The notes under the pieces were generated by a model. That model was not told the origin of the DNA and did not search any database. It was given only the letters and a program-made list of their open reading frames with translations. A stretch of 64,000 nt of DNA, from positions 105,409 to 169,408 of the forward strand of contig JAIOPL010000015.1 in NCBI GenBank assembly GCA_021413925.1. The letters run 5' to 3'. Below, piece by piece: positions 62 to 34,800 of this stretch (positions are counted from its first letter, which is position 1; each line of letters opens with the position of its first letter). Position numbers and translations under genes: made by a program. Source of the stretch: Verrucomicrobiota bacterium (GTDB lineage Bacteria > Verrucomicrobiota > Verrucomicrobiia > Chthoniobacterales > UBA6821).

Positions 62-844
62 TTACTTCGCAGGAGGGAAGTATTGGTCGATCACGGGTTG
101 GATGGCATCGGCCCAGATCTGGTAACCCTTCGCACTGGGATGAAGAAAATCCGGCATGATCTCCGGGCTCATGGTCCCGTCGGGTTCGAGGAATTTGTCT
201 CCAAAATCAAGGAAGAGCAGCCTCTTCCCATCGGCATAACCGGCGACGATCCTATTGATCTCCTTGATGCGTTCGCGGATTGGATTTGTGGCACTCTGAG
301 TGCGTGGAAAGATCCCTTGGACTATGATCACGGCATCCGGACAGAGGCTTCTGTATTGGTTGATGATAGCCTTGATTCCCTCGGCAATCTGCTCGTTCGA
401 GTTCTTGGACAGATTGTTCGTCCCGATCATGAGGAGAATGAGCCTGGGATGGATCCCGTTCATCTGTCCCTGAGAAAGCCTCCATAGCAAGTGCTCGGTC
501 CGGTCGCCGCTGATTCCGAAATCAAAGGCACCCAGCTTGGCATAGCGTTCCTGCCATACCAGTCTCCCCTTTGACTGCCACCCGTCGGTGATCGAGTCCC
601 CGTCGAAGACCAACTGGATCGTGTTGGCGACTTTGGCCGCGTCGTTATTGTCTTTCTTCACGCGGCTGATCCAATCGAATTTTGGAAGTGGGCAGGCCGC
701 AGAGTTTTCCCCGGTTGGTGTCATCACGCCTAGGAACCAATCAAGCCCAGGAGGTGGTGTCGGGGCGGGCGAGGCGGCTGGATCTTCGGCATGCAGGAAT
801 GAAGCCGCTGTCAACAGAAGGACAGTGAGGAAACGATGGTACAT
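62..844 (-). CDS. secreted SGNH/GDSL-family hydrolase
   Basis: Encodes 260 residues with an N-terminal hydrophobic signal sequence ending near residue 19 (motif LHAE), so the product is probably exported. SGNH hydrolase blocks are in order: FDGDSITDG with the nucleophile Ser84 (block I), Gly in FGISGDRT near residue 110, GTNN at 141-144 (block III), and DFLHP with Asp232 and His235 completing the triad (block V). The layout resembles the platelet-activating-factor acetylhydrolase-like or rhamnogalacturonan acetylesterase-like branch, so an esterase or deacetylase acting on lipids or acetylated glycans is likely; the substrate cannot be read from sequence. It is transcribed away from the phosphohexomutase gene, with 135 bp between the two starts. 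Family assignment is firm; substrate is unknown. Confidence 0.88.
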   Translation of the reverse strand: MYHRFLTVLLLTAASFLHAEDPAASPAPTPPPGLDWFLGVMTPTGENSAACPLPKFDWISRVKKDNNDAAKVANTIQLVFDGDSITDGWQSKGRLVWQERYAKLGAFDFGISGDRTEHLLWRLSQGQMNGIHPRLILLMIGTNNLSKNSNEQIAEGIKAIINQYRSLCPDAVIIVQGIFPRTQSATNPIRERIKEINRIVAGYADGKRLLFLDFGDKFLEPDGTMSPEIMPDFLHPSAKGYQIWADAIQPVIDQYFPPAK

Positions 845-979
845 GGATCATTGAATATGTTGAACGCTTCGTGCCCTACAACTCAGAAATGTTGCCTGGG
901 AAGGCGTTTGCAGTTTTTGTGGGCTGGGACAGATCCTTTCCGCTTTCCAGTTTCAGGGTTCTCGTTTCATCCTTCCCTT

Positions 980-2935
980 ATGTCCACTCTCCTCGATTCC
1001 ATCGCCGCAGCCGAAGCCGCGGGTTCCCTCTTGAAGTCCTCCGCGGAGAATATCCGTACCATGCTTGGACGCGGATCCTCGCCGCTGGCTGAGGACGTCA
1101 TCACGGAGTTGGCGCAAGGCGGACTTTGGGACGAACTGAACAACCGCTTTTTCCGCGCCATGGCCTTTGGTACCGGCGGTCTCCGCGGCAAAACAATCGG
1201 TGAGGTGGTGACCAAGGCGGAAGCCGGACTCGGTCGTCCGGATGGCCGTCCCGAGCATGCCTGCATCGGCACCAACGCGATGAACGACTACAATATGGTC
1301 CGCGCCACACGTGGGCTTGCCACCTACGTGCGAGGGTGGCACGAGCGGAATAACCGCCCCGGCCGGCCCGCCATTGCGATCAGCTACGACACACGCTTCT
1401 TCTCCCGGGAATTCGCCGATCTGGCCGCCAAGGTGATGACCGACCTGGGTTGTGATGCGCTCCTCTTCGAGGGGCCACGTTCCACTCCGGAGCTCTCCTT
1501 TGCCGTCCGTTACAAGAGTGCCGCCGCCGGCATCAATATCACGGCCAGCCACAATCCCCCGGGCTACAACGGCTACAAGGTCTACTTCGACGACGGAGGG
1601 CAGGTGGTCGCGCCGCATGATCAAGGAATCATCGATTTGGTGAATGCCGGTGATGATTCCTACGACCCCCTTCCCGAGGCGCAACGAGGTCAGGTGATCA
1701 AGATCGGCCGTGAAATCGATGAGGCTTACATGGAGCGATTGGAGAAGCTGATCGTTGATCCGGAGCTTTTTCATCGCAAGCCGAAGCTCAAGACCGTCTT
1801 CACCCCACTACACGGAGTTGGAGGAGTGATCATTATCCCGATGCTCCATCGCCTCGGTGTCGAGTGTTGGCCTGTTCCCTCCCAGATGGTTCCTGACGGT
1901 CTCTTCCCCACGGTCAAGTCCCCGAACCCCGAGTATCCCGAGGCTCTCAAGCTCGGGATGGAACTGGCTGACATCGAGAAAGCCGATCTCGTCCAAGCGA
2001 CCGATCCCGATGACGACCGGATGGGTGTCGCTGCCCGCGATGCTTTAGGAAAACTGGTGCTGCTCACCGGCAATCAGATCGGTTCGCTCATGGTCTGGTA
2101 CCGTCTCAAGAGTCTCTTTGAAAAGGGTATCCTAACCGAGGCCAACCGCGATCATGCCGTCGTGATCAAGAGTCTTGTGACCACGGATCTTCAGAAAGCG
2201 ATCGCTCTTGGCTTCGGCGTGAAGTGCGTCGAGACCCTGACCGGTTTCAAATACATCGGTGCCAAGCAACGCGCCTACGAGGAGAAGCTTCCGGCGAAGA
2301 TCCAGGCCAACTACCGCAACCTCTCCGAGGAGGAGACCCGGGAGGCGCGACTCAAGGATTCCCTCTTCTTTGTCTTCGGCGGAGAGGAGAGCTACGGCTA
2401 CAACACTGGGGACTTCGTCCGCGACAAGGATGGCAATGCGGCCGTCATCTGCTTCGCTGAGGTTGCGGCCTTTGCTGCCAGCGAGGGAATCACGGTCGTG
2501 ACACTGCTCGATCGGATTTACTCGGAATACGGTTTCTATCTTGAGCGGGGAGAATCGCTCACCTTCGACGGGGCCGAAGGTGCTGCGAAGATCAAGAAGC
2601 TGGTCGATTCCTATGCCGGCAATCCTCCGGCGGAAATCGCCGGAGCCAAGGTTCTCTCTGTTCTCAACTATGCCACCCAGGATCTCTATGACTCGGAGGG
2701 AGAGTTGATTCCGAAGGAGGCGATGATCACTTTCGAAACCGAAGGCGGCTGGAAAGTCACAGTTCGTCCCTCTGGTACCGAACCGAAGATCAAATACTAC
2801 CTCTACGCCGCTGAAAAACCCTCTTCTGGAACCTTTACACCCGATGAGCTCGCCTCCACCAAGTTGCGAGTTGCCGAGGGACTCGAGACGCTCTGGCAGT
2901 GGCTCAAGGCGGATGCCGCGCTACGCGCGGCCTGA
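980..2935 (+). CDS. phosphoglucomutase/phosphomannomutase family phospho-sugar mutase
   Basis: A 651-residue alpha-D-phosphohexomutase, interconverting hexose 1- and 6-phosphates in the cytoplasm. All four active-site elements are visible: TASHNPPGYNG with the phosphorylated Ser190, the Mg-binding loop DPDDDR at 342-347, the sugar-specificity loop GGEESYG at 467-473, and the C-terminal phosphate-binding RPSGTEPK at 596-603. The open frame extends upstream to 836, but the first 48 codons look non-coding, and the start at 980 is where family similarity should begin. At about 650 residues it is longer than the usual 450-600. Glucose versus mannose preference is not decided by these motifs. Its closeness to a glycosyltransferase and a GH130 enzyme makes a role in supplying or recycling sugar phosphates for them plausible. 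Confidence 0.93.
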   Translation: MSTLLDSIAAAEAAGSLLKSSAENIRTMLGRGSSPLAEDVITELAQGGLWDELNNRFFRAMAFGTGGLRGKTIGEVVTKAEAGLGRPDGRPEHACIGTNAMNDYNMVRATRGLATYVRGWHERNNRPGRPAIAISYDTRFFSREFADLAAKVMTDLGCDALLFEGPRSTPELSFAVRYKSAAAGINITASHNPPGYNGYKVYFDDGGQVVAPHDQGIIDLVNAGDDSYDPLPEAQRGQVIKIGREIDEAYMERLEKLIVDPELFHRKPKLKTVFTPLHGVGGVIIIPMLHRLGVECWPVPSQMVPDGLFPTVKSPNPEYPEALKLGMELADIEKADLVQATDPDDDRMGVAARDALGKLVLLTGNQIGSLMVWYRLKSLFEKGILTEANRDHAVVIKSLVTTDLQKAIALGFGVKCVETLTGFKYIGAKQRAYEEKLPAKIQANYRNLSEEETREARLKDSLFFVFGGEESYGYNTGDFVRDKDGNAAVICFAEVAAFAASEGITVVTLLDRIYSEYGFYLERGESLTFDGAEGAAKIKKLVDSYAGNPPAEIAGAKVLSVLNYATQDLYDSEGELIPKEAMITFETEGGWKVTVRPSGTEPKIKYYLYAAEKPSSGTFTPDELASTKLRVAEGLETLWQWLKADAALRAA

Positions 2936-3049
2936 TTGGGCATCGGTGATAGGTCATGGGGCATAGGGAAGAAGACGCAACCCATCAACCGAACGCAGCC
3001 TCTTTTCTTTCCCCATCACCCAGCTCCTAATACTTACTCCCTAAATCCT
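2936..3049. repeat. purine-then-pyrimidine intergenic spacer
   Basis: The spacer starts after the mutase stop with a purine-rich stretch (words like ggtgatagg, catgggg, catagggaag). It ends just before the next start with a pyrimidine-rich stretch containing ccccatcaccc, which is close to the reverse complement of the first words. It is one of several spacers in this window with the same architecture but different words. It could form an imperfect long stem in the transcript. Confidence 0.5.
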
Positions 3050-3379
3050 ATGCTGGCCTCCACCACCTTTGACATTCCCGGCTACCGAATCACCGCCCAC
3101 AAGGGGATGGTTCGTGGCATCATCGTCCGCTCGCCGACCATCGCCCAGGGAATCCTCGGCGGACTCAAGAGCATTATAGGGGGCCGCATTGGAGCCTACA
3201 CCGAGATGTGCGAGCAGGGACGCCAGCATGCCTACGATGCCATGGTCTCTCATGCTGCGGAACTCGGTGCCAACGCCATCATCGGAGTCCGCTACGATGC
3301 CTCCGATCTCGGCGACTCGGCTACTACTGAGGTCCTTTGTTACGGAACTGCAGTGACGGTGGAATCTGCTAAAGCGTAG
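3050..3379 (+). CDS. YbjQ/UPF0145 family protein
   Basis: A 109-residue protein of the YbjQ (UPF0145, formerly DUF74, putative heavy-metal-binding) family. Recognisable features are the N-terminal IPGY segment, [27 protein letters not shown], the [14 protein letters not shown] helix and the [13 protein letters not shown] strand, together covering the whole usual family length of about 105 residues. The family forms pentameric rings in structures; its cellular role is not established. The frame is open from 2936 but the ATG at 3050 matches the normal family start, and the upstream codons lie in repeat-like spacer sequence. Confidence 0.9.
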
Positions 3380-3500
3380 CTTGGAGCATTCCCCTCCCAT
3401 CTAGTTCTTTTGCTTATTTACACAGCGGTAACGGGACGCTTCTTGTGCGGTGGTCTGACGGGGTTAGGCTGAATCTGGTTTGAGAGATTCTACTGACCCT

Positions 3501-5810
3501 ATGAGGATTGCTTTTCTTGGCGATTATTTGCCGAGGTTGTGTGGAATTGCGACGTTCACACACGATCTGTGCGAGTCAATCGCCTCGATTGTCCCAGATT
3601 GGGATTGCTTTGTCGGGGCAGTCAATGACCGCCCTGAGGGCTACGCCTACCCACCTCGCGTGCGCTTTGAGATCACGGAGAAAGATCTGGCCTCCTACCG
3701 GAGGATGGCCGATCTCTTGAACTTCAATAATACCGACCTGCTCTGCGTCCAGCATGAGTTCGGCATCTACGGGGGGGCGGCCGGCAGTCATCTACTGGCA
3801 TTGCTGAAGGAGGTTCGGATGCCTGTGGTGACGACACTTCATACGATACTCAGCGATCCCGATGCTGTGCAGCGCAGGGTAATGGAGACCCTGCTGGCGC
3901 GCAGCAGTCGTCTCGTCGTGATGTCCCGCAAGGGGCGCGAGATCCTGAAGGAAACCTACGGGGTCTCCGATGAGAAGGTGGATGTCATTCCGCACGGCAT
4001 ACCTGATCTCGACTTTGTGGAATCTAGACTCTGCAAGGAGCAGTTCGGCGTGGAAGGACGCCAGGTGCTTCTCACCTTCGGCCTCATCGGTCCGGGCAAG
4101 GGAATCGAGCACGCAATCGAAGCCCTACCTGAGATCGTTCGGAGGCATCCGAATGTCGTGTATCTGGTACTTGGAGCAACGCACCCACACCTGATGGCCA
4201 GCGAGGGGGAGCGTTACAGGTTGAGTCTCGAGCGACTGGTCCAGGAGCTGGGCATGAAAGAGCATGTGATCTTTTACAACCGATTTGTCTCATCGGATGA
4301 CCTGAAAGATTTTGTGGGTGCGACCGACATTTATCTTACCCCTTATCTTAACGAGGCGCAGGTCACCTCGGGCACCCTCGCCTATGTGATCGGAGCGGGG
4401 AAGGCCGTTGTCTCCACTCCTTATTGGCATGCACAGGAACTGCTTGCGGATGGACGTGGCGTCCTGGTTCCGTTCCATAATCCCCAGGCTATCGCGGAGG
4501 GAGTTTGCGGCTTGCTCGATAATCCTGTGCGAATGGAAAAGATCCGCAGAGATGCCTATGCTATGGGGCGAGAAATGATCTGGCCGACTGTCGCCAAGCG
4601 CTATCTTCAAACCTTTGAGGAGGCCCGACGAGATCGCCGCCATGATCCCCAGATTGCAGTTCCCTTCGATCGCAGGACCACTCCGCGTGCGGCTTTTGCG
4701 GGCTGGACGCTTGCCAGTCGCCCCCTGGAGCTCCCTCCCCTGAGGCTCGACCACATCATCCGCATGAGTGACGGCACGGGTATCTTCCAGCACGCCATTT
4801 TCAACGTTCCCAACTTTCACGAGGGCTATTGCACGGATGACAATGCGCGGGCCTACATACTCTGCAATCTGCTCGATGAGATCGGTGCCCAGCCTCCCAT
4901 GGAGAATCTGGCCGCCCAGTCCACCTGCTATCTTGCCTTTCTGGCTGCAGCTCTTGATCGGAAGAGCGGACGCTTCCGTAACTTTATGAGTCACGGGCGC
5001 CAGTGGCTTGAGGACGCCGGTAGCGAAGACAGCCATGGGCGTGCCCTGTGGGGTCTGGGCTCAGGAGTGGGACGTTCGCGGAATGAAGGTCATCGGAAGC
5101 TGGCCGCACAGATTTTCGAGCTCGGGCTTGCAGCTGTTGAAGAATTCACCTCACCCAGGGCCTGGAATTTTGCCCTCCTGGGGATTCACGAGTATCAGCG
5201 CCGTTTTCCGAACGAGGAAAAGACGAGCCTCCTGCGCGAAGTCCTCGTGGAAAGGCTCATCAGTCTCTGGAAAGAGTATTCATCGGAGGACTGGCCCTGG
5301 TTTGAGGCGAGTCTCACCTATGACAATGCCCGCTTTTCGCAGGCGATGATCCTCAGCGGAGACTCCATGAACCATGAAGAAGCTCTCGCCATAGGACTCA
5401 AATCCCTTCGCTGGCTTGCCTCGATCCAGACAACTCAGCGTGGATGCTTCCGTCCCATCGGCAGCAATGGATTCTACCGTCGCGATGGCGCGCGCGCAGA
5501 TTTCGACCAGCAGCCCTTGGAGGCCCTTGCTATGGTGTCGGCCTCCTGCGAGGCATTCCGGGTAACCGGGGATGCCATCTGGTCGCCGGAGGCAAGACGT
5601 TCCTTCGAGTGGTTCCTAGGACGCAATGACCTGGGTCTCCCTCTCTACGATTTCAGCACGGGCGGATGCAGTGACGGGCTCCATCACGACAGGGTTAGTG
5701 AAAATCAGGGGGCAGAATCCTCGCTAGCCTTCCACCTTTCGCTCGCAGAAATGAAATCAGCTGAACATATCACGCCCCTCATGCCTCTCCAACCCGTATC
5801 CACGCGATGA
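3501..5810 (+). CDS. GT4 glycosyltransferase fused to a C-terminal helical (alpha/alpha-barrel-like) domain
   Basis: A 769-residue two-part protein. Residues 1-375 are a GT-B fold glycosyltransferase of family 4: MRIAFLGDYLPRLCGIATFT start, the HGIPD segment at 165-169, the second-domain glycine-rich strand LTFGLIGPGKGIEHAIEAL at 191-209 and the donor-site stretch EAQVTSGTLAYVIGAGKAVVS at 285-305. Residues 410-760 form a second domain starting RMSDGTGIFQHA and containing EGYCTDDNARA at 441-451; its repeated helices and aromatic and acidic residues resemble (alpha/alpha) barrels of glycoside hydrolases or lyases, but I cannot name the family. A TTG 21 bp upstream is an alternative start. The stop overlaps the GH130 start by four bases (ATGA), so the two are probably co-translated and work on the same glycan. 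Confidence 0.85.
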   Translation: MRIAFLGDYLPRLCGIATFTHDLCESIASIVPDWDCFVGAVNDRPEGYAYPPRVRFEITEKDLASYRRMADLLNFNNTDLLCVQHEFGIYGGAAGSHLLALLKEVRMPVVTTLHTILSDPDAVQRRVMETLLARSSRLVVMSRKGREILKETYGVSDEKVDVIPHGIPDLDFVESRLCKEQFGVEGRQVLLTFGLIGPGKGIEHAIEALPEIVRRHPNVVYLVLGATHPHLMASEGERYRLSLERLVQELGMKEHVIFYNRFVSSDDLKDFVGATDIYLTPYLNEAQVTSGTLAYVIGAGKAVVSTPYWHAQELLADGRGVLVPFHNPQAIAEGVCGLLDNPVRMEKIRRDAYAMGREMIWPTVAKRYLQTFEEARRDRRHDPQIAVPFDRRTTPRAAFAGWTLASRPLELPPLRLDHIIRMSDGTGIFQHAIFNVPNFHEGYCTDDNARAYILCNLLDEIGAQPPMENLAAQSTCYLAFLAAALDRKSGRFRNFMSHGRQWLEDAGSEDSHGRALWGLGSGVGRSRNEGHRKLAAQIFELGLAAVEEFTSPRAWNFALLGIHEYQRRFPNEEKTSLLREVLVERLISLWKEYSSEDWPWFEASLTYDNARFSQAMILSGDSMNHEEALAIGLKSLRWLASIQTTQRGCFRPIGSNGFYRRDGARADFDQQPLEALAMVSASCEAFRVTGDAIWSPEARRSFEWFLGRNDLGLPLYDFSTGGCSDGLHHDRVSENQGAESSLAFHLSLAEMKSAEHITPLMPLQPVSTR

Positions 5811-7294
5811 ACTCCATCAGTATCCGACGCCATGAGGTGGTACTTCTACCGGATAGCGCGCGCGTCATTATCCGCCCCTTTATTCCCGAGGATACCTTTC
5901 GGATCACCACCATTATAGGTCGCGCGCTTGCCCTGAGTGATGAGGAGGTCGGAAGCGAACTGGATTCCGTCCTGAGCGAGTTCGACTCACGCCATTTCGA
6001 TATTGAGTCGTTACTCGAAGGGCACTTTGCAAAGGTGAGTCACCATGTCTTCACTCAGCGGCCGCTTTCCCGTGAGCGTCAGTTGCTTATAGGGGCGCTC
6101 TTCTCGGGAGAATATGCGCTCGAATCAGCGGCCATCTTCAACCCCTCTATCGTCCCTCATCCGGATCAAGGCGGAGTCCCGGAAGGTGGACTTCGGTTCA
6201 TTATGAGCCTTCGAGCCACGGGAGAGGGTCATATCTCCTCCATTGAATTTCGATCAGGAATTATCGCCAACGATGGAGGGATCACCCTAGATCCCGTCTC
6301 ACGTTTCGTTACGGTTCCCGAAGTCCTGCCCAATCCCAGCTACTACAAAAAACGTTTTACTATCAAGCTGGCAGAGATGGGATTCGGTGAAAGAAACGAA
6401 AAGGGAGAGCGTCGTGAAAGCCATGCCGCCGCGGTGATGGATCAGCTTTCGGAAAACTTCACGCGTCATGATCTGAACGCGAGGGTGGATGCCGTGCGAG
6501 TTCAAACCCAGCCCCCGACTCGCGACCTCGACCGGACGCTGGACTGCATCCAATGGTTGGCCGATTCCAATTACGAACTCTGTTTTTCGGACAAGCTCGC
6601 AATGAGCGAACGGATCATCTTTCCGGTTTCGTCTAGCGAGTCCTCCGGCATTGAGGACGCGCGGTTCGTCCGGTTCATCGAGGATGACGGTTCGGTCATG
6701 TATTATGCGACGTACACGGCTTATAACGGACGATCCATTCTGCCACAGCTCATCGAAACCAAGGATTTCCTGCACTTCCGCATCCTGACGCTCAACGGGA
6801 GTGCCGTGCAGAACAAGGGGATGGCACTTTTTCCCCGTCGCATCAACGGGCGTTACGCCATGCTCTCTCGCCAGGACGATGAGAACCTCTTCATCATGTT
6901 CTCGGATAGCCCTCATTACTGGAGTGATCCGCAAGTGATCCTGCGCCCTTCCGAAATGTGGGAGTCGGTGAAGATCGGCAATTGCGGCTCACCCATGGAG
7001 ACGGAGGCCGGTTGGCTGGTCATCACACACGGGGTCGGGCCCATGAGGAAATACTGCATCGGCGCCGCCCTGCTCGACCTGAACGATCCTACGAAGGTAA
7101 TCGGGCGTCTTCGTGAGCCACTGCTCTCTCCCGTGGGGGCGGAGCGTGAGGGATATGTCCCCAATGTCGTCTACAGTTGCGGTTCGCTCCTCCATGGTCA
7201 TGAACTTATTCTTCCATTTGCTGTGAGCGACCGTGCCTCGGCCGTGGTCAGCGTTCCGCTGGATCCCTTGATCGCGTTGCTGAAGTCCGGTTAG
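5807..7294 (+). CDS. GH130-family glycoside phosphorylase/hydrolase with N-terminal extension
   Basis: A 495-residue protein whose C-terminal 260 residues carry the five-bladed GH130 pattern: SGIEDARF at 280-287 (the family's ED-x-R region holding the catalytic Asp, here Asp284), KGMALFPRRINGRYAMLSRQ at 337-356, FSDSPHYW, and CGSPMETEAGWLVITHGV at 393-410. Characterised GH130 members mostly phosphorolyse beta-mannosides to alpha-mannose 1-phosphate; some are plain beta-1,2-mannosidases. The first 230 residues are an extra domain absent from the small 300-350-residue enzymes. No signal peptide is seen, so it acts in the cytoplasm. It overlaps the GT4 gene by four bases. The exact linkage and phosphorylase-versus-hydrolase choice are undecided. 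Confidence 0.85.
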   Translation: MNSISIRRHEVVLLPDSARVIIRPFIPEDTFRITTIIGRALALSDEEVGSELDSVLSEFDSRHFDIESLLEGHFAKVSHHVFTQRPLSRERQLLIGALFSGEYALESAAIFNPSIVPHPDQGGVPEGGLRFIMSLRATGEGHISSIEFRSGIIANDGGITLDPVSRFVTVPEVLPNPSYYKKRFTIKLAEMGFGERNEKGERRESHAAAVMDQLSENFTRHDLNARVDAVRVQTQPPTRDLDRTLDCIQWLADSNYELCFSDKLAMSERIIFPVSSSESSGIEDARFVRFIEDDGSVMYYATYTAYNGRSILPQLIETKDFLHFRILTLNGSAVQNKGMALFPRRINGRYAMLSRQDDENLFIMFSDSPHYWSDPQVILRPSEMWESVKIGNCGSPMETEAGWLVITHGVGPMRKYCIGAALLDLNDPTKVIGRLREPLLSPVGAEREGYVPNVVYSCGSLLHGHELILPFAVSDRASAVVSVPLDPLIALLKSG

Positions 7295-7367: not shown

Positions 7368-7441
7368 CGGGGCGTAGCTCAGCTTGGTAGAGCGCTTGGT
7401 TTGGGACCAAGAAGTCGCAGGTTCGAATCCTGTCGCCCCGA
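7368..7441 (+). tRNA. tRNA-Pro (anticodon TGG)
   Basis: Folds as a complete cloverleaf: acceptor CGGGGCG (7368-7374) with CGCCCCG (7434-7440), D-arm GCTC...GAGC, anticodon stem CTTGG/CCAAG around loop TTTGGGA giving anticodon TGG, and T-arm GCAGG-TTCGAAT-CCTGT. The discriminator base is A at 7441 and no CCA is encoded. It stands alone between the GH130 gene and the palmitoyltransferase-like gene. Its last bases are repeated downstream. Confidence 0.97.
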
Positions 7442-7650: not shown

Positions 7651-8982
7651 ATGGCCAGAGACCTCTTCCAGAAGTGCCGAGAGTATAGCGATTCGGCAGA
7701 TGCCCGAGCTCAGGGATTCTACCCGTATTTCCGCTGCATCGAGCAGAGCTACGGGAACCATGTTGTCTGCGGCGGTGAGGAGAAAATCATGATCGGGTCG
7801 AATAACTACCTCGGCCTGGCCCAAGATCCCCGTATTGTCGAGGCGGCCTGTGAGGCGACTCGCCAGTTTGGTGCCGGATGCACCGGTTCCCGCCTGCTCA
7901 ATGGCACGATCTCCCTCCATAATGAACTGGAGGAGGCGTTGGCTGCTTTCCTTGGCCGCGAAAGTGCTCTGCTTTTTTCCACCGGATTCTTTGCCAACCA
8001 AGGTGCCCTTGCCGCCCTGACCGAGGCCGATGACTTCATCCTTTGCGACCGCGAGAACCATGCCTCCATTATCGAGGGGTGTCAGGTAGCCCCAGCCAAG
8101 CTGGTTCCCTACCGTCACAACTCTGTGGATGCTCTTCGCAACCGACTCAAGCGCATCCCTGATGAGTCGGGCCGTCTCATTATCATGGATGGCGTCTTCA
8201 GCATGTCCGGTGATATGGCCGACCTGCCGCCAATGGTGAAGGCAGCCAAGGAATATGATGCCATCATGTATGTCGACGAGGCCCATTCACTCGGTGTGGT
8301 CGGCCCTCAAGGGCGCGGCGTGGTCCATCACTACGGGGTCAATGACGATGTCGAAATCGTCATGGGAACCTTTTCCAAGTCCTTCGGCTCCATGGGTGGT
8401 TTCATCTCCGGTTCGCATGAGATGATAGAATTTGTGAAGCATAAGGCCCGTTGCTTCATCTTCACCGCCTCCCTTGCTCCTGCCGTGGTGGGTGCCGTTC
8501 TCAAGGCCCTCGAAATCATGCAGTCCGAGCCTGAGCGCATCGAAATGCTCTGGCGCAACACTCGCAAGATGCACGAAGGGTTCAGGTCGATCGGATTCAA
8601 GATCGGCTCGACCCAGAGCCCGATCGTTCCGATCCTTATAGGCAGCGAGGCCAAAGCGTTCGCCTTCGCCCAGCGCCTCTTCGAAGAGGGAGTCTTCGCC
8701 ACGCCTGCCATCTATCCTGCCGTCCGTTATGGCGAGGCGATCGTCCGCACCAGCTTCATGTCGACCCACAGTGAGGAGGATCTCGACAAGGTGCTCGACA
8801 TTTTCGCAAAGATTGCGAGAGAACTAGGGACTTTCGATGACCCAGCATACACAGAACCAGGCCGCCGCCGGAACGTTTTCGATTTTGCCCTGCCACAGCG
8901 CGGCGGACCTGAAGAAGTTCGAGTCGATTCCGGAAATTCTTCACGGAACGGATCCGAGCTTCACGCCGCCGTTTCCCGGTAG
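7651..8982 (+). CDS. serine palmitoyltransferase-like alpha-oxoamine synthase
   Basis: A 443-residue PLP enzyme of the alpha-oxoamine synthase family (SPT, BioF, Kbl). PLP-site residues: His137 in RENHASI stacking on the cofactor, Asp209 in YVDEAHS, and the Schiff-base Lys243 in GTFSKSFGSMGG. The segment IGSNNYLGL near 48-56 is also typical. These enzymes condense an amino acid with an acyl thioester; with the two genes that follow, L-serine plus palmitoyl-CoA or -ACP giving 3-ketosphinganine is the best guess. BioF or Kbl activity cannot be excluded from motifs. The last 47 codons overlap the next gene in another frame and look non-homologous, so the conserved enzyme ends near residue 396. 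Confidence 0.8.
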   Translation: MARDLFQKCREYSDSADARAQGFYPYFRCIEQSYGNHVVCGGEEKIMIGSNNYLGLAQDPRIVEAACEATRQFGAGCTGSRLLNGTISLHNELEEALAAFLGRESALLFSTGFFANQGALAALTEADDFILCDRENHASIIEGCQVAPAKLVPYRHNSVDALRNRLKRIPDESGRLIIMDGVFSMSGDMADLPPMVKAAKEYDAIMYVDEAHSLGVVGPQGRGVVHHYGVNDDVEIVMGTFSKSFGSMGGFISGSHEMIEFVKHKARCFIFTASLAPAVVGAVLKALEIMQSEPERIEMLWRNTRKMHEGFRSIGFKIGSTQSPIVPILIGSEAKAFAFAQRLFEEGVFATPAIYPAVRYGEAIVRTSFMSTHSEEDLDKVLDIFAKIARELGTFDDPAYTEPGRRRNVFDFALPQRGGPEEVRVDSGNSSRNGSELHAAVSR

Positions 8983-9988
8983 TGTCGTCGGCCTTATTGG
9001 CCCAAAGTCCGTTTTCTTAAAGAAGCACGGGGAGATAATTCCTCTCATCGCTTACCGAGACGGAAAGCCTGTCGGGCGTATCGCCGCCATCGTCAACCGC
9101 TCTCACAACAACTATAACAAGGACACGGTCGGCTTTTTCGGATTCTTTGATTTCATCAACGACTCCACGGTGGCAAGAGCGCTTGTCGATGAGGCAGCCA
9201 AGATCCTGAAGGAGAAGGGCCTGACCATCATGCGCGGTCCCTACAATCCCACCATCAACGACGATTGCGGGGTGCTGACCGAGGGGAATGACAGGCCGAC
9301 CTCTGTTTCGATGCCTTGGAATCCCCCTTATTATGAGGAGGTCTACAAGGCAGCGGGCCTGGAGGTCGTACGCACTCTTGCCGCCTATGATGTTCCGCTG
9401 CACAACGATCCTCCTGAGCGAGTGAGCAAGATCGTGGATCGCATTAAAAATCGTAACAGCGTTACGGTGCGGTCCCTCGATATGAAAAATCTGCCGAAGG
9501 AGATGGAGATCATCCACCGGCTCTACAACATCACACTGGATCGGAACTGGGGCTTCTATCCGATCGCGTTGGATGATTTGCTTCACTCTGCTGATGACCT
9601 TAAGGCGATCGCAGATCCCAAGATGATTTTCTTTGTCTGCATGGATGGAAAGGAGGTCGGATTCTCACTCACCCTCCCGAATGTGAACGAGGTGTTCCAT
9701 GCCTCCCGAGGCCGCAAGGGGATCCTCCGCTTTCTGGAGATGGCGCTACGACTACAGATCTGCAAGCCAAAGACCAGCCGCCTTTGCGTATTGGGTGTCG
9801 AGCCCGATTATCGCGACAAGGGACTGAGCGCCCTGCTCTTTTATGAGAGCTTTATGGTTTCAAAAGTGAAGCACAGCGTGGTGGAAGTCTCCTGGGTAGA
9901 AGCCAACAATGTGGAGATTCTTGAGGCCGCGAAACTCATGGGCGGCCATTGTTCCCGCACCTACGAGATTTTCGAGAAGGCTCTCTAG
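8837..9988 (+). CDS. GNAT-like acyltransferase, candidate bacterial ceramide synthase
   Basis: A 383-residue protein of the large two-lobed GNAT-like family that includes E. coli YghO. Recognisable parts are the opening PCHSAADLKKFESIPEILHGTDPSFTPPF, the KPVGRIAAIVNRSHN strand-helix near 75-90, the FGFFDFINDSTVARAL segment and MRGPYNPTINDDCG near 133-146. Bacterial ceramide synthase of Caulobacter is described as a GNAT-like acyltransferase, and this gene sits between an SPT-like and a CerR-like gene, so N-acylation of 3-ketosphinganine is the inferred role. The start at 8837 is kept because the conserved N-terminus begins immediately after it, which forces a 146-bp overlap with the preceding gene. 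Confidence 0.7.
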   Translation: MTQHTQNQAAAGTFSILPCHSAADLKKFESIPEILHGTDPSFTPPFPGSVVGLIGPKSVFLKKHGEIIPLIAYRDGKPVGRIAAIVNRSHNNYNKDTVGFFGFFDFINDSTVARALVDEAAKILKEKGLTIMRGPYNPTINDDCGVLTEGNDRPTSVSMPWNPPYYEEVYKAAGLEVVRTLAAYDVPLHNDPPERVSKIVDRIKNRNSVTVRSLDMKNLPKEMEIIHRLYNITLDRNWGFYPIALDDLLHSADDLKAIADPKMIFFVCMDGKEVGFSLTLPNVNEVFHASRGRKGILRFLEMALRLQICKPKTSRLCVLGVEPDYRDKGLSALLFYESFMVSKVKHSVVEVSWVEANNVEILEAAKLMGGHCSRTYEIFEKAL

Positions 9989-10032
9989 CCTCTGCAAAGC
10001 TTCTCCTGCTCGAGATCGGGAATCACTTTTTT

Positions 10033-11031
10033 ATGGAACTTCTGCTGACCGGCTCCACGGGATTCGTCGGACGGAATCTGTTGCTTAAGCTTCATCGTGA
10101 CTCCCGCTGGAGCCGGATCATTCTTCCGGTTCGTGATCCGCAGAAACTCCGTGCTCAGCTTCAGGGTGAGGGGATTGATGACGACGGGCGCTTCGAGATC
10201 TGCCGGGTCACGGGGGATTTTTGGGAGCTTCCGCAGGGTATCTCTCCTGATCTGGTGATCCACGCCGCAGGACTTCTCTTTGGGCGCCGGAAGGAGGATT
10301 ACTTTGGTACCAATGTCGACGGGAGTATCCGTCTAGCCGCTCAGTTGCCCCGGACGGCCCGGATGATCGTTCTTTCCTCACTGGCCGCCGGAGGGCCGAC
10401 TCCGGCCGACTCCTCGCATCGCACCATGAATCACCAGGATAATCCTGTTTCGTTCTACGGCGCCTCGAAACTCACCATGGAGAGGGAACTCCGCAATCGG
10501 CTTGGTCGTCGCCTCCTTATTCTCAGGCCGCCGATGGTGCTCGGGCCGCGCGATGCCGCCACGCTACCGCTCTTCAAGATGGCAGCCGCTCCGATCCGCA
10601 TCAAACCGGGTTTTGCTCCCAAGCATTACAGCTGGATCGATGTCGGTGATCTCTGTGACGCCATGCTGTCTGTCGCCGTGGTTGCGCCTGCTGACTGGGA
10701 GAAGCACGGGCCCTTCTATCTTGGCTCGGAGCAACTCATCACGGATTCCGAACTGATTGCGACCGCAGCCGAAGTGATCGATGCCCGCGGCATCACGCTT
10801 TCGGTTCCCCAGGTTGCAATCCAACTAGCCTCCCTAGTGATCGACGCAGTTCCTGCCTGGCGTGCCGCTGCCCCCAGTCTCGGGCGTGACCGTGTGCGTG
10901 AGATCCTTCCCTCACGATGGGTCGCCGAAGGAACGCCCTTTGCCGAGCACTTCGGCTGGAGCCACCGCCGCACGCTTGCGGAGACCCTCGCGGAAACCGC
11001 CGCATGGCTGAAGGGGCAGGGGAAGATCTGA
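10033..11031 (+). CDS. extended SDR / NAD(P)-dependent epimerase-dehydratase, candidate ceramide reductase
   Basis: A 332-residue extended short-chain dehydrogenase. The Rossmann dinucleotide loop is TGSTGFVG (Gly7, Gly10, Gly13), the catalytic Ser lies in VLSSLAAGG near 114-116 and the YxxxK pair is Tyr142/Lys146 in FYGASK. In the described bacterial ceramide pathway the last step is reduction of the 3-keto group by an epimerase-like SDR (CerR), which this gene would supply. A generic sugar-nucleotide epimerase is the alternative. The frame is open 84 bp upstream, but MELLLTGSTG is the expected SDR start. Its last codons belong to the segment that recurs at 15554. Confidence 0.72.
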   Translation: MELLLTGSTGFVGRNLLLKLHRDSRWSRIILPVRDPQKLRAQLQGEGIDDDGRFEICRVTGDFWELPQGISPDLVIHAAGLLFGRRKEDYFGTNVDGSIRLAAQLPRTARMIVLSSLAAGGPTPADSSHRTMNHQDNPVSFYGASKLTMERELRNRLGRRLLILRPPMVLGPRDAATLPLFKMAAAPIRIKPGFAPKHYSWIDVGDLCDAMLSVAVVAPADWEKHGPFYLGSEQLITDSELIATAAEVIDARGITLSVPQVAIQLASLVIDAVPAWRAAAPSLGRDRVREILPSRWVAEGTPFAEHFGWSHRRTLAETLAETAAWLKGQGKI

Positions 11032-12570: not shown

Positions 12571-14283
12571 CTAGAACTTCATTAGCACGCCCCAGTCGGC
12601 TTGATTTTCGAATCTTGAGGAGAGTCCTGTGATGGCAGTTACGCCGGAGCCGGCGTTGTCCGTCTGGTCCCAGCCCGTACCGTAGATCAGATACGATCTG
12701 CTCTCTGATGGCCTGTAGCAAAGCGGCTTGCCGGTGAGCGGGTCTGTGGGGACCGATGGCAGGAAGGCTGGCACGAGGTCTTCTAGGGTTGCGGGAAGGC
12801 GCCCGTGGGCCATGCGATAGCGCTCGACCGCGCAGGCGGTGGCGAGGCTTTGGAGGATTGTCTGGGTGGCTGCAATCTGCTTGGCTGGGCTCATAATAGC
12901 CGGCATCGCCACCTGAGATAGGGGATTCCGGATCTTATTCCAAACGGAGGAACCGGCACGCGCGGCCTCGATCTCTGTGAGGGTTGACGGAAGTTCCTTT
13001 GGCTGCTTCACGGCGTCGATATACCGCTGGATGGTGCCGATGTATCCGGCTTTATCCTCGTTGAACCATCCCGCTGGCCAGATTGCCCATGTGGCCCGGA
13101 GCGCCGCATTTTGTAGTCTCAGCGTGCGGGTGTCGGGGAGTCCCTGCAGCGTCAATAGATCTGTTCTGGAAGCATCGAGCTGGAGAAGAGATGCTCTCTC
13201 CCCGCGAAGACCGTTGGAAAGGCGTGCCAGCAGATCGATGCGGGAGAGCTCGCTGGAGAGGGCCGCCAATTGAGCATCGGTCCATGCGTGCCTCTCCAGA
13301 CCATCGCTAATCACCTGAGATGCCCGGTCCAAGATGCTTCTTTCAACAAGCACCGTAATGAGAAAAGGGGAGGACCCAGCGGCGCGTGCCAGACCCAAAA
13401 GCGTCTGGACATCTTGAAAGGCATTCTCCGGACGGCCAGTCGCCAGTTTGGCGAGCGCTCTCCCTTGGAAGACCTTGGAGGCATTCACTGTCTCTGGGAG
13501 GTAGGTCATCGGCATCTCGAAACCTTTTGAGTAATCAAGCGGCCAACAAACCCCCGGTCGACGGACCGCCTGGGCGACTTCCTCAAGCAGAGGGGCTGAG
13601 GGGGCAAGACTCTTTAAAACCAATTCCCCAGCGGCCTGATCGTCGCCCTTGAAATCGGGATTTAAGAACCTTGCTGTGAAATGGATCGTGCTCTCGCCCG
13701 ACTTAGGTTTTCCAGTGATTTTTTTCCAAGGCACATCCAGCTTTCCAAGTCGCGAATCCTTCGCGGAAACAAAGACTTCCTGAAAGACCGGTGCGGCGGC
13801 CGCGTTGTCGGCATCGGGCATCGGTGCCGGCACGATTTCCTCGAATCGCGTGGGCTCGTTCTTTTCCCGGAGCACGGCCAGGGCGGCGCTCAGCTTTCTT
13901 GCACCCCACCAGTTCGTCCATGAATAGAACAGGGTCACAAGGGTGACCAATGTGACAACGGCCAACAGGAGGCCCTTTGTCCATCCGCCTCGCCGGTCGC
14001 ATTCCTCGTAACGCGCAAAGTTCCACGGCAACACCACTCCGGTGATCACAAGAATGCCGAGGAAAATCGCGGCAGCCAGCCAGAGCGTTATCGTGCGGGA
14101 GAAAACCATATCTCCCAAAGCAAAAACGATGGGCAATCCGATCACGACGTGCAGCATCGCCTGCAGGTAGAAACCGGCATATCGCAGGTGTACATGGCAG
14201 TTTTCACATTCTTTTGTCGGGCCTGGCCACAGAACCCAAGACTTAAACGGAGCAACGCGTTGATGGCATTTGGGGCATTTCAT
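12571..14283 (-). CDS. zinc-ribbon membrane protein of unknown function
   Basis: A 570-residue protein. The N-terminus has a four-Cys zinc ribbon, CPKC at 3-6 and CENC about 20 residues later, then three hydrophobic segments (near 40-60, 68-90 and 103-125) and a long soluble part. Near the C-terminus the stretch HGRLPATLEDLVPAFLPSVPTDPLTGKPLCYR resembles the tails of pseudopilin-like and other large hypothetical proteins common in Planctomycetes and Verrucomicrobiota. I cannot assign a function. It lies 39 bp downstream of the small membrane protein of the sigma operon and is probably co-transcribed, which suggests it belongs to that regulon. Confidence 0.7.
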   Translation of the reverse strand: MKCPKCHQRVAPFKSWVLWPGPTKECENCHVHLRYAGFYLQAMLHVVIGLPIVFALGDMVFSRTITLWLAAAIFLGILVITGVVLPWNFARYEECDRRGGWTKGLLLAVVTLVTLVTLFYSWTNWWGARKLSAALAVLREKNEPTRFEEIVPAPMPDADNAAAAPVFQEVFVSAKDSRLGKLDVPWKKITGKPKSGESTIHFTARFLNPDFKGDDQAAGELVLKSLAPSAPLLEEVAQAVRRPGVCWPLDYSKGFEMPMTYLPETVNASKVFQGRALAKLATGRPENAFQDVQTLLGLARAAGSSPFLITVLVERSILDRASQVISDGLERHAWTDAQLAALSSELSRIDLLARLSNGLRGERASLLQLDASRTDLLTLQGLPDTRTLRLQNAALRATWAIWPAGWFNEDKAGYIGTIQRYIDAVKQPKELPSTLTEIEAARAGSSVWNKIRNPLSQVAMPAIMSPAKQIAATQTILQSLATACAVERYRMAHGRLPATLEDLVPAFLPSVPTDPLTGKPLCYRPSESRSYLIYGTGWDQTDNAGSGVTAITGLSSRFENQADWGVLMKF

Positions 14284-19334: not shown

Positions 19335-22300
19335 ATGTCTGAAAGAATCAACTTCGGAAAACTCTACGAGGCCATCCAACCGCCCAACCTCATCGAACTG
19401 CAGATCAAGTCCTACGAGGAGTTTTTCCAGACAGGCGTCGAGCCCTCCAAGCGAAAGAACGTAGGCCTTCAGGCCGTCTTCCGTGAATTCTTCCCGATCT
19501 ATGGCTTCGAGGAGAAATCCTCGCTTGATTTTGTGAGCTATCACATGGACGAGCCGAAGATCGGCCCTTTTGAATGCCAGATCGAGGGAGAGACCTACAG
19601 CGCTCCCCTTTACGTCACCTTCCGGTACAAGGACGAAAAGTCCACTAAGGAAGAAAAGGTTTACATGGGTGAGATCCCTCTCATGACCAAGTCCGGAACC
19701 TTCATGGTCAATGGTGCCGAGCGCGTCGTGGTCAGCCAGCTTCACCGTTCTCCAGGCATCTGCTTTGAGTCCGATATTCACCTCAACGGAAAACTGCTCT
19801 TTGGTTTCCGGATCATTCCCGACCGGGGTTCTTGGACCGAGGTGCAGTTCGACACGAATGACCTTCTTTATGTCTATCTTGACCGCCGCAAGCGCCGTCG
19901 CAAGTTCCTTGCGACCACCTTCCTGCGCGCACTTGGATTCCCTACGGACGAGGAGATTGCAGCTCTCTTCTACAAGATCGAAAGCCTCAAGCTCTCGGAC
20001 AAACTCGACGAAGAGGAAATCGGCACCAAGGTCCTGCTCGCTGATGTCCGCGAGGGCGACGCGATTATTGCCCGTGCCTACGAGCCCCTGACTCCCGCCG
20101 TCATTCGCGATCTGATCCGTGCCGGACACAACTCAGTCAAGGTCATCGACACGAAGGATGACGATACGATCGTCAAGTCCCTTAAGCGCGATCCCGCCCA
20201 CAGCGAGGAAGAGGCACTCAAGGACATCTACCGCAAGCTCCGTCCCGGCGATCCTCCGACAGTGCAGAATGCCCGAGGCATGCTCAAGCGCCTCTTCTTT
20301 GACTCCAAGCGCTACGACCTCGGTCGCGTTGGCCGTCACAAGATCCAGCAGAAGCTTGGTCTTGATCCTAAGATCGATGACCGTGTCCTTCGCAAGGAAG
20401 ATATCGTTGAGTCGATGCGTTATCTTCTCAAGCTTCGCAAAGGTGACGGGATGCTCGATGATATCGATCACCTCGGCAGCCGCCGTGTCCGTACGGTCGG
20501 AGAACTGCTTGCCAACCAGTGCCGCGTGGGACTCTCCCGCACGGAGCGTCTCGTCCGCGAGCGCATGGCCCTCTACGATCCTTCCGTCGATCACATCACG
20601 CCTCAGAAGCTGATCAATCCGAAGTCCCTGAGCGCCGTCGTGCGTGATTTCTTCGGCCGTTCCCAGCTGAGCCAGTTCATGGATCAGACGAACCCGCTCT
20701 CCGAGCTCACCCACAAGCGCCGTCTCTCGGCTCTTGGGCCTGGAGGTCTCTCCCGTGAGCGCGCTGGATTCGAGGTTCGCGACGTCCATCCATCCCACTA
20801 CGGCCGCATCTGCCCGATCGAGACCCCTGAAGGTCCGAACATTGGTCTGATCAGCTCCTTGAGCACGTACGCCCGTGTGAACGACTTCGGATTCATCGAG
20901 ACCCCGTACCGCAAGATCATCAATGGCAAGGTAACCGACGAGATCGAGTACCTCACCGGTGACCGTGACGAGAACTTCTACATTGCTCAGGCGAATTCAC
21001 CCCTCGACAGTAAGGGGAAATTCCTTGGCGAGACGGTTTCCTCGCGTTACCGCGGAGACTTCGTCGAGATTGAGCCCGAGAAGATCCAGTATATGGATGT
21101 CTCTCCGAAGCAGCTCGTTTCAGTAGCCGCGGGTCTTATCCCCTTCCTCGAGCACGATGACGCCAACCGTGCGCTCATGGGCTCAAACATGCAGCGCCAG
21201 GGTGTGCCGCTCCTCATCTCCGATGCCCCGATTATCGGGACCGGAATGGAGGGACGCGTCGCCCGTGATTCGCGTGCGGTGATTGTTTCCGAGTCGAACG
21301 GCAAGATCGCTTCCGTGGACGCACTGCGCATTATTGTTACCAAGGATGGCGAGCTTCCCGAGGGGAAGAAGAAGATCAAGGATGATCCCGAGAACGGCGT
21401 GCACGTCTATGACCTGCGCAAGTTCATGCGCTCCAACAGCAGCACCTGCATCAACCAGAAGCCCATCGTCAAGAAGGGCCAGGTGATCAAGAAGGGTGAC
21501 GTGCTTGCAGACGGTCCGAACACGGAGAACGGAGAGCTCGCGCTCGGCCGCAACGTGCTCGTCGCCTTCATGCCCTGGAACGGTTACAACTTCGAGGACG
21601 CCATCATGATTTCCGAGCGAGTGGTCAAGGAGGATGTCTACACCTCCATCCACATCGACGAGTTCGAGATTGGGGCCCGTGATACAAAGCTTGGGCCTGA
21701 GGAAATCACTCGTGACATCCCGAATGTTAGCGAGGAAGCTCTTCTGAACCTTGGACCCGACGGAGTCATCCGCATCGGCGCCGAGGTGAAGCCGGGCGAT
21801 ATCCTTGTTGGAAAGATCACTCCGAAAAGTGAGACCGAGCTGGCTCCTGAGGAGCGCCTCCTGCGCGCCATCTTCGGCGAGAAGGCAGCCGATGTGAAGG
21901 ACACCTCCCTCACCGTTCCGTCCGGAACCTACGGCATTGTCATGGACGTACGCGTCTCCTCCAAGGAGAAGGCCGCTAAGATCAAGATGACCCCATCCGA
22001 GTCGAAGCGTCAGCAAAAGATGATCCAGGACGACAACAAGAAGCGTAAGGAAGAACTCTTCGAGCAGCTCACGGAAGGCCTGGCCAACGTGCTCCTCGGC
22101 GAGAAGATCCCGCTCGACGTCGTCAACGGCGAGTCAGGAGAGATCATCATCCCAGCCAACCGCAAGATCACCAAGATGCTCCTGCGCAAGCTGGCCGGCG
22201 TCTACAATGTGGTCGAGATCGATCCGAGCCCGATCCGCAACAAGATCCGCGAGATCATCGGACAGTTCGAGCACCGCTTCGCCGACCTCGATAACGAGAA

Positions 22301-23135
22301 GGAAGAGAATCTCGGCCGCGTCGAGAGTGGTGATGATGTCGATCCCGGTATCATCAAGCAGGTCAAGGTCTTCATTGCCAGCAAGCGCAAGCTCTCTGTC
22401 GGTGACAAGATGGCAGGCCGCCACGGTAACAAGGGCGTTGTCGCCAAGATTGTTCCCGAGGAGGACATGCCCTTCCTTTCCGACGGTACCCCCGTCGATA
22501 TCGTGCTCAACCCGCTCGGTGTGCCTAGCCGTATGAACGTTGGTCAGGTTCTCGAAACCCATCTGGGTGTCGCGGCCAAGGCCCTCGGTTTCAAGGTTGC
22601 CACCCCCGTCTTCGACGGAATTCCCGAGAGCCGCATCCGCGAGTACCTCAAGGAAGCCGGTCAGAAAGAGGGATTCTCCTGGATTCAGGAGAACGGCAAG
22701 TCGCAGCTCTTTGACGGTCGTACCGGCGAGGCGTTCGATCAGGAGGTCGTTGTCGGCATCATCTACATGCTCAAGCTCGGTCACCTCGTGGCCGACAAGA
22801 TCCACGCCCGTGCCGTCGGTCCCTACTCCCTCGTCACCCAGCAGCCGCTCGGTGGTAAGGCTCAGTACGGAGGCCAGCGTTTCGGAGAGATGGAAGTCTG
22901 GGCACTCGAGGCCTATGGCGCCGCTTACACGCTGCAGGAATTGCTCACCGTCAAGTCCGACGATGTGCAGGGCCGTACGCGTATCTACGAGAGTATCGTC
23001 AAGGGTGACAACTCCCTGGAGGCCGGTATCCCCGAGTCCTTCAACGTGCTCATCAAGGAAATGCAGGGACTCGGACTCGATGTCCGCGTCGGCAAAAAGG
23101 ACGAAGCCCGTTCCTTCATCGATACCGCCGCTTAA
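19335..23135 (+). CDS. rpoB: DNA-directed RNA polymerase subunit beta
   Basis: 1266 residues. Starts [27 protein letters not shown], typical of beta. The rifampicin-binding cluster near residue 445 reads [19 protein letters not shown], the drug-sensitive consensus at the visible positions, followed by [29 protein letters not shown]. Active-site segments [11 protein letters not shown] and [11 protein letters not shown] are present, and the C-terminal clamp part [32 protein letters not shown] is intact. It assembles with the beta-prime product of the next gene. Confidence 0.99.
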
Positions 23136-31828: not shown

Positions 31829-34800
31829 ATGAAGTTTAACGAGGATTCCAGGGTCAAGATCCCAGCTATCCTCCATCTCACGAGGCTGGGCTACACCTAT
31901 CTGTCCCTAAAGGGGCTGGAGTGGGATGCGTCGAGCAACATCGTCCCCTCGATTTTTCGCAAGAGCGTCTCCTCCCTGAATCCCCAGGCCTCGACTCACG
32001 AGATCGACAACGAGCTGTCAAAGCTGGATCTCCTCTTGGACAACGAGGATCTGGGTAAGCAGTTCTACGAGAGGATTACCCAAACCTCTGGATTGAAGAT
32101 TATCGACTTCGACAATTTCAATCGGAACTCCTTCCATGTGGTGACCGAGTACACCTGTAAGAAGGATGACGAAGAGTTCCGCCCTGACATCACTCTGCTG
32201 GTCAATGGACTTCCTCTCGTTTTCATCGAGGTGAAGAAACCCAACAACCGCGATGGCATTCTCGCCGAGCGTAAACGAATCGCCACGCGATTTCAGAACC
32301 CCAAATTCCGACGCTTCATCAATGCCACCCAGCTCATGGTGTTCTCGAACAACATGGAGTACGACGATGGTTCGCCTGAGCCTCTCGAGGGAGCATTCTA
32401 CGCATCCACCTCCTATTCGGAGCCCAAGTTCAATTACTTCCGTGAGGAAGAGAGCCTGAACCTCGACGAGATACTGGGACCGCTCTCCCAGGGAACCGAA
32501 GATTTTGTTCTCTCAGACAACAATCTCATCAGCATCAGACACTCGCCTGAGTTCGAGACCAATAAGAGACAGGGCACCCCCACCAACCGCCTCAGCACCT
32601 CCCTCTTATCCCGTGATCGCTTGGCCTTCCTCCTCCGCTATGGGATCGCCTATGTGCGGACTGAAGCCGGTATCGAGAAACACATCATGCGGTACCCCCA
32701 GATATTCGCCACCAAGGCGATTGCCCAGAAAATCGATCAGGGAGTCCGCAAAGGCATCATCTGGCACACACAGGGTAGTGGGAAGACGGCTTTGGCCTTC
32801 TACAATGTTCATCACCTCACCGACTATTTTCGGAAGAAAGAGACCATTCCAAAATTCTACTTCATCGTCGATCGCCTCGATCTTCTCGATCAGGCCAGCC
32901 GGGAGTTTCGGAGTCGGGGGCTGATTGTCCACAACATCAGTTCCAAGGAAGAGTTTGCCGCTGACATCAAGTCGAGCTTGGCGATCCACAACGACTCAGG
33001 AAAGCCGGAGATTACCGTCGTGAACATCCAGCGCTTCGAGGATGACCCCGATGTCATCAGGGGAACGGATTACGCCCTAGGCCTTCAGAGGATCTACTTT
33101 CTGGATGAAGTCCACCGGAGCTACAACCCCGAGGGTAGCTTCCTTGCGAATCTCAACCAATCCGATCCTGACGCCATCAAAATAGGACTCACCGGCACCC
33201 CTCTGCTCAAGGCGGCACTCCCTGCTCAGAAACAATCCGATGGGACCCCTTCTGGAAAAAAGACTTACAACTCTCGAGTACTCTTCGGGGATTACATTCA
33301 CAAGTACTACTACAATCGCTCGGTAGCCGACGGCTATACCCTCCGTCTGATCAGGGAAGAGATCGAGACGCAGTACAAACTTGAACTCAAAGAGGCTCTT
33401 GAGCAGATCAAGGTGCTGAAGGGTAGTAACAACCGAACCCTTCTCTACGCTCACGAGAAGTTCGTTGATCCGATGCTTACCTACATCGTTGATGATTTTG
33501 AAAATGCTCGGCTCATGAAGGGCGACACGTCAGTGGGAGCCATGGTCATTTGTGATTCTGCAGAGCAGGCGAGAGAGATGGCTCGGCTGTTTGAGAAGAA
33601 ATATGCCTCCCTGAGCTCTCCGATGATTGCTGAGGATGTTCCGCTCGCCTATGCCGCAGAGCCTCCCTCCCTCTACGCGCTTCCCGATCGCACGGTCACC
33701 TCATGCGCCCTCATTCTTCATGATGCAGGCACCAAGGAGGAGCGAAAGACCCTTGTGGAGAAATTCAAGGAGGGGAAGATCGATATCCTCTTTGTCTACA
33801 ACATGCTTCTCACGGGGTTTGACGCAGCCCGGCTGAAAAAGCTCTACCTTGGTCGTACGATCAAGGACCACAACCTTCTCCAGGCCCTCACACGGGTGAA
33901 TAGACCCTATAAATCGCACCGCTACGGCTACGTTGTAGATTTCGTCGATATCACTTCAGAGTTCGAAAAGACCAATAAGGACTACTTCGACGAGCTCCAG
34001 TCAGAGTTGGGTGACGAGCTGCAGAACTACTCCAATCTCTTCAAGACCGAGGAGGAGATCATCGCGGACATCGATGCGATCAAGGATGCCCTCTTTCACT
34101 TCGACATTGGAAATGCCGAGACCTTTTCACAGCAGATCAGTCAGATCGAGGACCGATCCGAGATGCGCACGATTCTCAAGGCTCTCAACGATGCCAAGAG
34201 CCTCTACAACCTGATTCGTCTCTCTGGCCGCTACGAACTCCTCGCCCAGCTTGATTTTCGGAAGCTCAATCAGCTCTTTACCGAGGCAAACAACCGCCTG
34301 GCACTTCTCAATCAGCGCGAAGCCCTCGAGCATGCTGATGAGAACGTGAACATCCTGAACATCGCCCTTGAGGATATTCTCTTCAAGTTCCGCAAGGTCT
34401 CCGAGTCTGAGATGGTGATTGCTGACGAGCTGAGGGAAAACCTTCGACGCACCCGCGAGGGGCTAGGTGGCAACTTCGACCCTGGTGATCCAGCCTTCAT
34501 AACCCTGAAGGAAGAGCTCGAGCGCATCTTCCTGAAGAAAAACCTCTCTGAGATCTCCCAGGGGGAAATGGTTCAAAACATCGCCACCCTGAAAGGAATT
34601 GATGTCCGAGCCCGAGAGTTGGAGCGCAAGAACCAGTTGTTGCGGGCTAAATACGCGAATGACGAAAAGTACGCCCGCCTCCATAAGCGCCTCCTAGAGA
34701 AAGGCGAGCCAACCGACAATGAGAGGAAGCTCTTCGAGGCCCTCAGCGCCTTCAAGGCCGAGGCCGACGCTCGTATCTCCCAGAACTCCCGAATCCTGAC

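Follow-up and report, generated by a model that had tools for sequence, protein, structure and literature searches.

A linked and overlapping gene trio with a predicted role in ceramide synthesis in a Verrucomicrobiota genome

The ceramide genes of Caulobacter crescentus are aasR, cerR, acpR, spt and cerS. The genes aasR-cerR-acpR-spt lie together, and cerS is found in a separate operon. For proteobacteria it has been stated as a generalisation that cerS always lies outside the operon of the de novo genes (PMC11324152). The enterobacterial yghO cluster (acyl-AMP ligase, SDR, ACP, Spt, YghO and LptFG; locus L072) is laid out differently and is ACP-dependent. Sphingobacteriaceae and relatives, that is Sphingobacterium, Pedobacter, Mucilaginibacter and Dyadobacter, carry a serine palmitoyltransferase (Spt), a bacterial ceramide synthase (bCerS) and a CerR-type SDR in this order on one strand; that Sphingobacterium produces sphingolipids is known.

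The acyl donor of Spt is acyl-CoA in Bacteroidetes, and a dedicated ACP in proteobacteria (PMC11324152). Whether reduction comes before or after N-acylation is disputed in bacteria generally (PMC11087976; PMC11324152). Within the Verrucomicrobiota, Spt-like proteins have been reported from 22 genomes that were metagenome-assembled from the Black Sea (PMC11334938).

The DNA analysed here is a stretch of 64,000 nucleotides, called the window below. It contains three genes of the families just named (Table 1), which very probably make up a Bacteroidota-type pathway for the de novo synthesis of ceramide, the sphingolipid backbone. This is the phylum, and the predicted pathway, of the Black Sea genes. 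Because Spt-like genes were reported earlier in those 22 genomes, the pathway is no first for Verrucomicrobiota, and the trio is an extension of a known pathway, not a new kind of system. That the window is of Verrucomicrobiota origin, as the first-pass annotation had supposed, agrees with its rpoB (19335-23135), which is 74% identical to that of a Verrucomicrobia subdivision 3 genome and 48-53%, over the full length, to those of Bacteroidota and Planctomycetota genomes.

Table 1 Features of the predicted ceramide locus, in window coordinates.
Feature	Position	Strand	Size	Basis
Spt-type alpha-oxoamine synthase (spt)	7651..8982	+	443 aa	NF047600, PDB match, tree, invariant residues
bCerS/YghO-family tandem-GNAT acyltransferase (bcerS)	8837..9988	+	383 aa	28-34% to sphingolipid-cluster homologues, single copy, GNAT tree, predicted fold
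Extended SDR, predicted 3-ketosphinganine / 3-ketoceramide reductase CerR	10033..11031	+	332 aa from ATG	CerR-position profile, motifs
spt/bcerS dual-frame overlap	8837..8982	+	146 nt	stop position in relatives, codon-position pattern, predicted fold
tRNA-Pro(TGG), neighbour, not a functional part of the trio	7368..7441	+		ARAGORN

The three open reading frames do lie together on one strand, and the genes downstream of them are on the opposite strand. The first-pass annotation had also described overlap or short gaps between the genes. Both are present, but the spt/bcerS overlap is longer than that description implied. From acyltransferase to SDR the gap is 44 nt, counting the SDR from the ATG at 10033. 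The SDR reading frame is already open from a TTG at 9949 (9949-11031, 360 aa); the alignment of homologues begins at the ATG, which makes the ATG the more likely start.

The spt product is a PLP-dependent alpha-oxoamine synthase. Its catalytic part covers approximately residues 1-394 and is followed by a C-terminal extension of 49 aa. The top NCBIfam model is NF047600, serine palmitoyltransferase (CFB), at 493.6 bits, the best of three SPT models; the model for the BioF/Kbl subfamily (TIGR01825) scores 408.9 bits and that for BioF 387.6 bits. NF047600 is a curated equivalog model with a cut-off of 640 bits, which no genome in the phylum sample passed. Since the spt product is below this cut-off, it is called 'Spt-type' here, and not a strict NF047600 equivalog. 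Among solved structures, the best PDB match is the SPT of Sphingobacterium multivorum (405 bits), followed by a Bacillus-type BioF/Kbl enzyme (314), Sphingomonas SPT (310) and Kbl (267 bits). Lower still are cysteate-C-fatty acyltransferase, the sulfonolipid enzyme CFAT (237), and BioF (202 bits).

The SPT-type Lys243 site, noted in the first-pass annotation, lies within the motif GTFSKS. Lys243 is invariant, as are His137, Asp209, His212 and Arg366. All five have matching counterparts in an alignment with S. multivorum SPT, where Lys243 falls on the PLP lysine. In a careful tree, a branch with 100/99 support groups the spt product with the SPTs of S. multivorum and S. wittichii, both characterised Spt types. 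Outside this branch are BioF and Kbl of E. coli, the Bacillus-type enzyme and the BioF that the genome itself encodes. A quick tree gives the same split between Spt and BioF/Kbl (SH-aLRT 98). Within the Spt side, a tree in which the window's clade branches first is not rejected (p-AU 0.35). Taken together, gene 1 is well supported as an Spt-type enzyme, predicted to condense serine with acyl-CoA.

Pfam barely recognises the product of gene 2, through Acetyltransf_1 at an E-value of 1e-4. Sphingobacterium bCerS as a query finds exactly one relative in the genome, and this is gene 2 (E 3e-53, 34%). Along nearly all of its length, its product is 27-34% identical to proteins encoded in clusters of the Spt or LptFG2 type, where the bCerS reference proteins are assigned by synteny. 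The relative in E. coli is YghO, next to genes for acyl-AMP ligase, SDR, ACP, Spt and LptFG. A relative in Roseomonas has LptFG, a lipid kinase, a CDP-alcohol phosphotransferase and a nucleotidyltransferase as neighbours, a locus that resembles the Caulobacter region described in PMC11324152. Relatives on Rubrobacter and Streptomyces plasmids are part of trios of Spt, acyltransferase and SDR.

In a tree of GNAT proteins, gene 2 falls among the Spt-linked proteins, away from the distant GNATs of two other loci. The predicted structure is a tandem GNAT (mean pLDDT 82). A structure search with this model returned tandem GNATs, FemX and N-myristoyltransferases, which use acyl-CoA (the last at Z ~15), and no solved ceramide synthase was among the matches. 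The likeness to bCerS, for which the first-pass annotation had suggested a profile check, is thus borne out by homology, by the tree and by the single copy in the genome. Membership of the bacterial ceramide synthase (bCerS/YghO) family is well supported, with N-acylation of a long-chain base as the predicted reaction.

The product of gene 3 has the NAD(P)-binding motif TGSTGFVG (TGxTGFxG) and the residues S117, Y143 and K147 of the Ser-Tyr-xxx-Lys pattern, all invariant. Against a profile made solely of SDRs in the CerR position in other phyla it scores 173 bits, and the genome's next SDR scores 83. With the CerR-position SDR of Sphingobacterium as the query, gene 3 is the sole match in the genome at E 1e-5. 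Its assignment as a CerR-type SDR, also proposed at the outset, rests on these two results, and a role as ceramide reductase CerR is a well-supported prediction. Caulobacter CerR is reported to be periplasmic; on visual inspection, the SDR shows no evident signal peptide from either start.

The overlap of spt and bcerS is conserved. Almost all relatives of the genus share the position of the spt stop within it, and so do several families of the order. In a few relatives the overlap is shorter (74 nt) or, going by the coordinates, absent. Some relatives miss the first bcerS start; beginning instead at the ATG found 36 nt further on would give them an overlap of 110 nt. Mismatches at the three codon positions, counted in the Spt frame, are 0.14/0.09/0.52 before the overlap. 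Inside it they are 0.19/0.12/0.36 and then 0.29/0.19/0.19, and after it 0.58/0.31/0.23. This pattern is consistent with the Spt frame being constrained in the first half of the overlap and the GNAT frame in the latter half. The overlap encodes residues 12-48 of the GNAT, which are folded in the structure model. When the N-terminus of the GNAT is shuffled synonymously, the Spt frame stays open in 25% of the shuffles, so the case for the overlap rests on its conservation and not on the open frame alone.

As the genes are coupled by a conserved overlap, Spt and bCerS are probably translated together. A more far-reaching idea is that the overlap, whose DNA specifies the C-terminal extension of Spt as well as the folded N-terminus of bCerS, enforces 1:1 translation, perhaps with a physical channel between Spt and bCerS for the reactive 3-keto base. 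In this view, the long-chain base made by the divergent Spt of this Verrucomicrobiota order would be a non-standard one. This is speculative and rather unlikely.

The trio is conserved as a group throughout the genus and in most of its order. A close homologue of gene 2 was found in 36 of 58 genomes of relatives, and Spt is found in those same 36 (36/36 genomes of the order), where one Spt is truncated at a contig end and one pair is on different contigs. The remaining relatives comprise 18 genomes without a homologue of the acyltransferase and four with a distant one only. These four (G029, G040, G048 and G056, family f9 of the same order) have an acyltransferase homologue of 26-29% identity, and no close Spt homologue at E 1e-100. 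They may have a different Spt, or the acyltransferase may have a different role there.

Given how widely the linkage is conserved in the genus and its order, the adjacency of the trio is not due to chance. The tRNA-Pro gene upstream recurs near the same locus in relatives (L010, L014, L029, L031 and L032), including in other families of the order. It marks a stable chromosomal location, and the locus looks old and vertically inherited. Further afield, the context of 80 loci from named genomes, found by means of the Spt alignment, was surveyed. The order spt-bcerS-cerR on one strand was found in Sphingobacterium, Pedobacter, Mucilaginibacter and Dyadobacter, in one Acidobacteriota genome and in Gemmatimonadota. 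At many other loci among the 80, one or two partner genes adjoin spt.

The first-pass annotation had recognised the enzyme set of Spt, bCerS and CerR, and had likened it to the ceramide genes of Caulobacter. The set stands, as sequence tests favour all three family assignments, and the activities predicted for it are the same three as in Caulobacter. The closest arrangement is however that of Bacteroidota, for example Sphingobacterium, and the closest solved Spt structure, that of S. multivorum, is also from a Sphingobacterium. Identity to clusters of the Sphingobacteriaceae type is ~42-47% for Spt and ~32-34% for the acyltransferase. The window's trio differs from these clusters by its spt/bcerS overlap and by the C-terminal extension of Spt. 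With the enterobacterial yghO cluster it shares the Spt, SDR and YghO families, the acyltransferases being 28% identical.

If the families act as their relatives do, the Spt homologue would join L-serine and a long-chain acyl-CoA through a Schiff base of PLP with Lys243, yielding 3-ketosphinganine. The GNAT-fold bCerS homologue would add a second acyl chain to the long-chain base by N-acylation, and the SDR would use NAD(P)H to reduce the 3-keto group, giving dihydroceramide. What is shown for the trio is its membership of the three families, the catalytic residues, the order of the genes, their conservation and their inheritance together; the substrates, the order of the steps, translational coupling and the presence of the lipid in the envelope are inferred. 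That the organism makes sphingolipids is a prediction.

The first-pass annotation pointed out that neither an acyl carrier protein nor an acyl-ACP synthetase is encoded next to the trio, in which the window differs from Caulobacter. This is confirmed by the whole genome, where all of the three PP-binding and three AMP-binding matches are on other contigs. It is to be expected and is no gap in the pathway, because Spt of the Bacteroidota type uses acyl-CoA. An AMP-binding protein elsewhere in the genome (L166) resembles long-chain acyl-CoA ligases, with scores below the cut-offs, and could supply Spt with acyl-CoA. A distant set of the Caulobacter AasR-AcpR kind was considered and rejected, as the sole pair of ACP and AMP-binding genes (contig C26, L168) keeps unlike company. 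This cluster (C26:105000-122000) has two ACPs, an AMP-ligase, two halogenase/FAD-type proteins, an acyltransferase and a glycosyltransferase, and has the look of a pathway of the aryl-polyene or resorcinol type. Next to the trio there is no head-group gene.

In another reading of the locus, the synthase might take another amino acid, such as alanine or glycine, to form a 1-deoxy-type base that the acyltransferase and the SDR would finish to a ceramide-like lipid. The Spt clade rests on few characterised members, the window's Spt is divergent and below the NCBIfam cut-off, and the Black Sea study has a (1-deoxy)ceramide backbone pathway with the same three proteins (PMC11334938). However, the protein is most similar to a characterised serine palmitoyltransferase, and the residues of the PLP site and those binding the carboxylate are conserved, which makes this reading improbable. 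The synthase could also be a cysteate acyltransferase, with N-acyl capnine as the product of the trio. Sulfonolipid synthesis is postulated to run parallel to sphingolipid synthesis (PMC9304779), and the cysteate enzyme is indeed among the PDB matches; yet its score, 237 bits against 405 for S. multivorum SPT, disfavours sulfonolipid (capnine) synthesis, which is very unlikely here.

Least credible of all is a synthase of the BioF/Kbl type that happens to lie beside unrelated acyltransferase and epimerase genes. The general fold and the TIGR01825 match to the BioF/Kbl family would allow for it. The tree, however, puts the spt product apart from both BioF and Kbl; a firm grouping with either was what the first-pass annotation had named as refuting its reading. 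In addition, the genome has a separate bioF at another locus (L005; TIGR00858, 427 bits, over the cut-off). On the tree and the separate bioF, a BioF or Kbl identity for the protein is rejected. Nor does such a reading fit the linkage of three genes kept within the order, or a gene order that recurs in several further phyla. The ceramide pathway remains the preferred reading.

What is added here is a linked, overlapping set of predicted ceramide genes that several families of a single Verrucomicrobiota order have retained; the phylum's earlier record, as found in the literature, consists of metagenomic reports of Spt-like genes only. With the trio, a lipid test has a defined set of genes to start from. 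The locus further illustrates that bcerS can overlap spt tightly, so the remark on a separate operon, made for proteobacteria, fails here and in Bacteroidota loci.

The window has further features of note. A 570-aa protein at 12571-14283, on the minus strand, has no significant Pfam match. Upstream of the trio, at 836-7294, are genes for a phosphoglucomutase/phosphomannomutase-like protein, a 776-aa GT4 glycosyltransferase, whose C-terminal half (~390 aa) is without a Pfam match, and a GH130 mannoside-phosphorylase-like protein. This is possibly a pathway for a mannose glycan. Finally, hsdR, hsdM and hsdS-like genes lie in a row at 31829-37853 and form a set of Type I restriction-modification genes.
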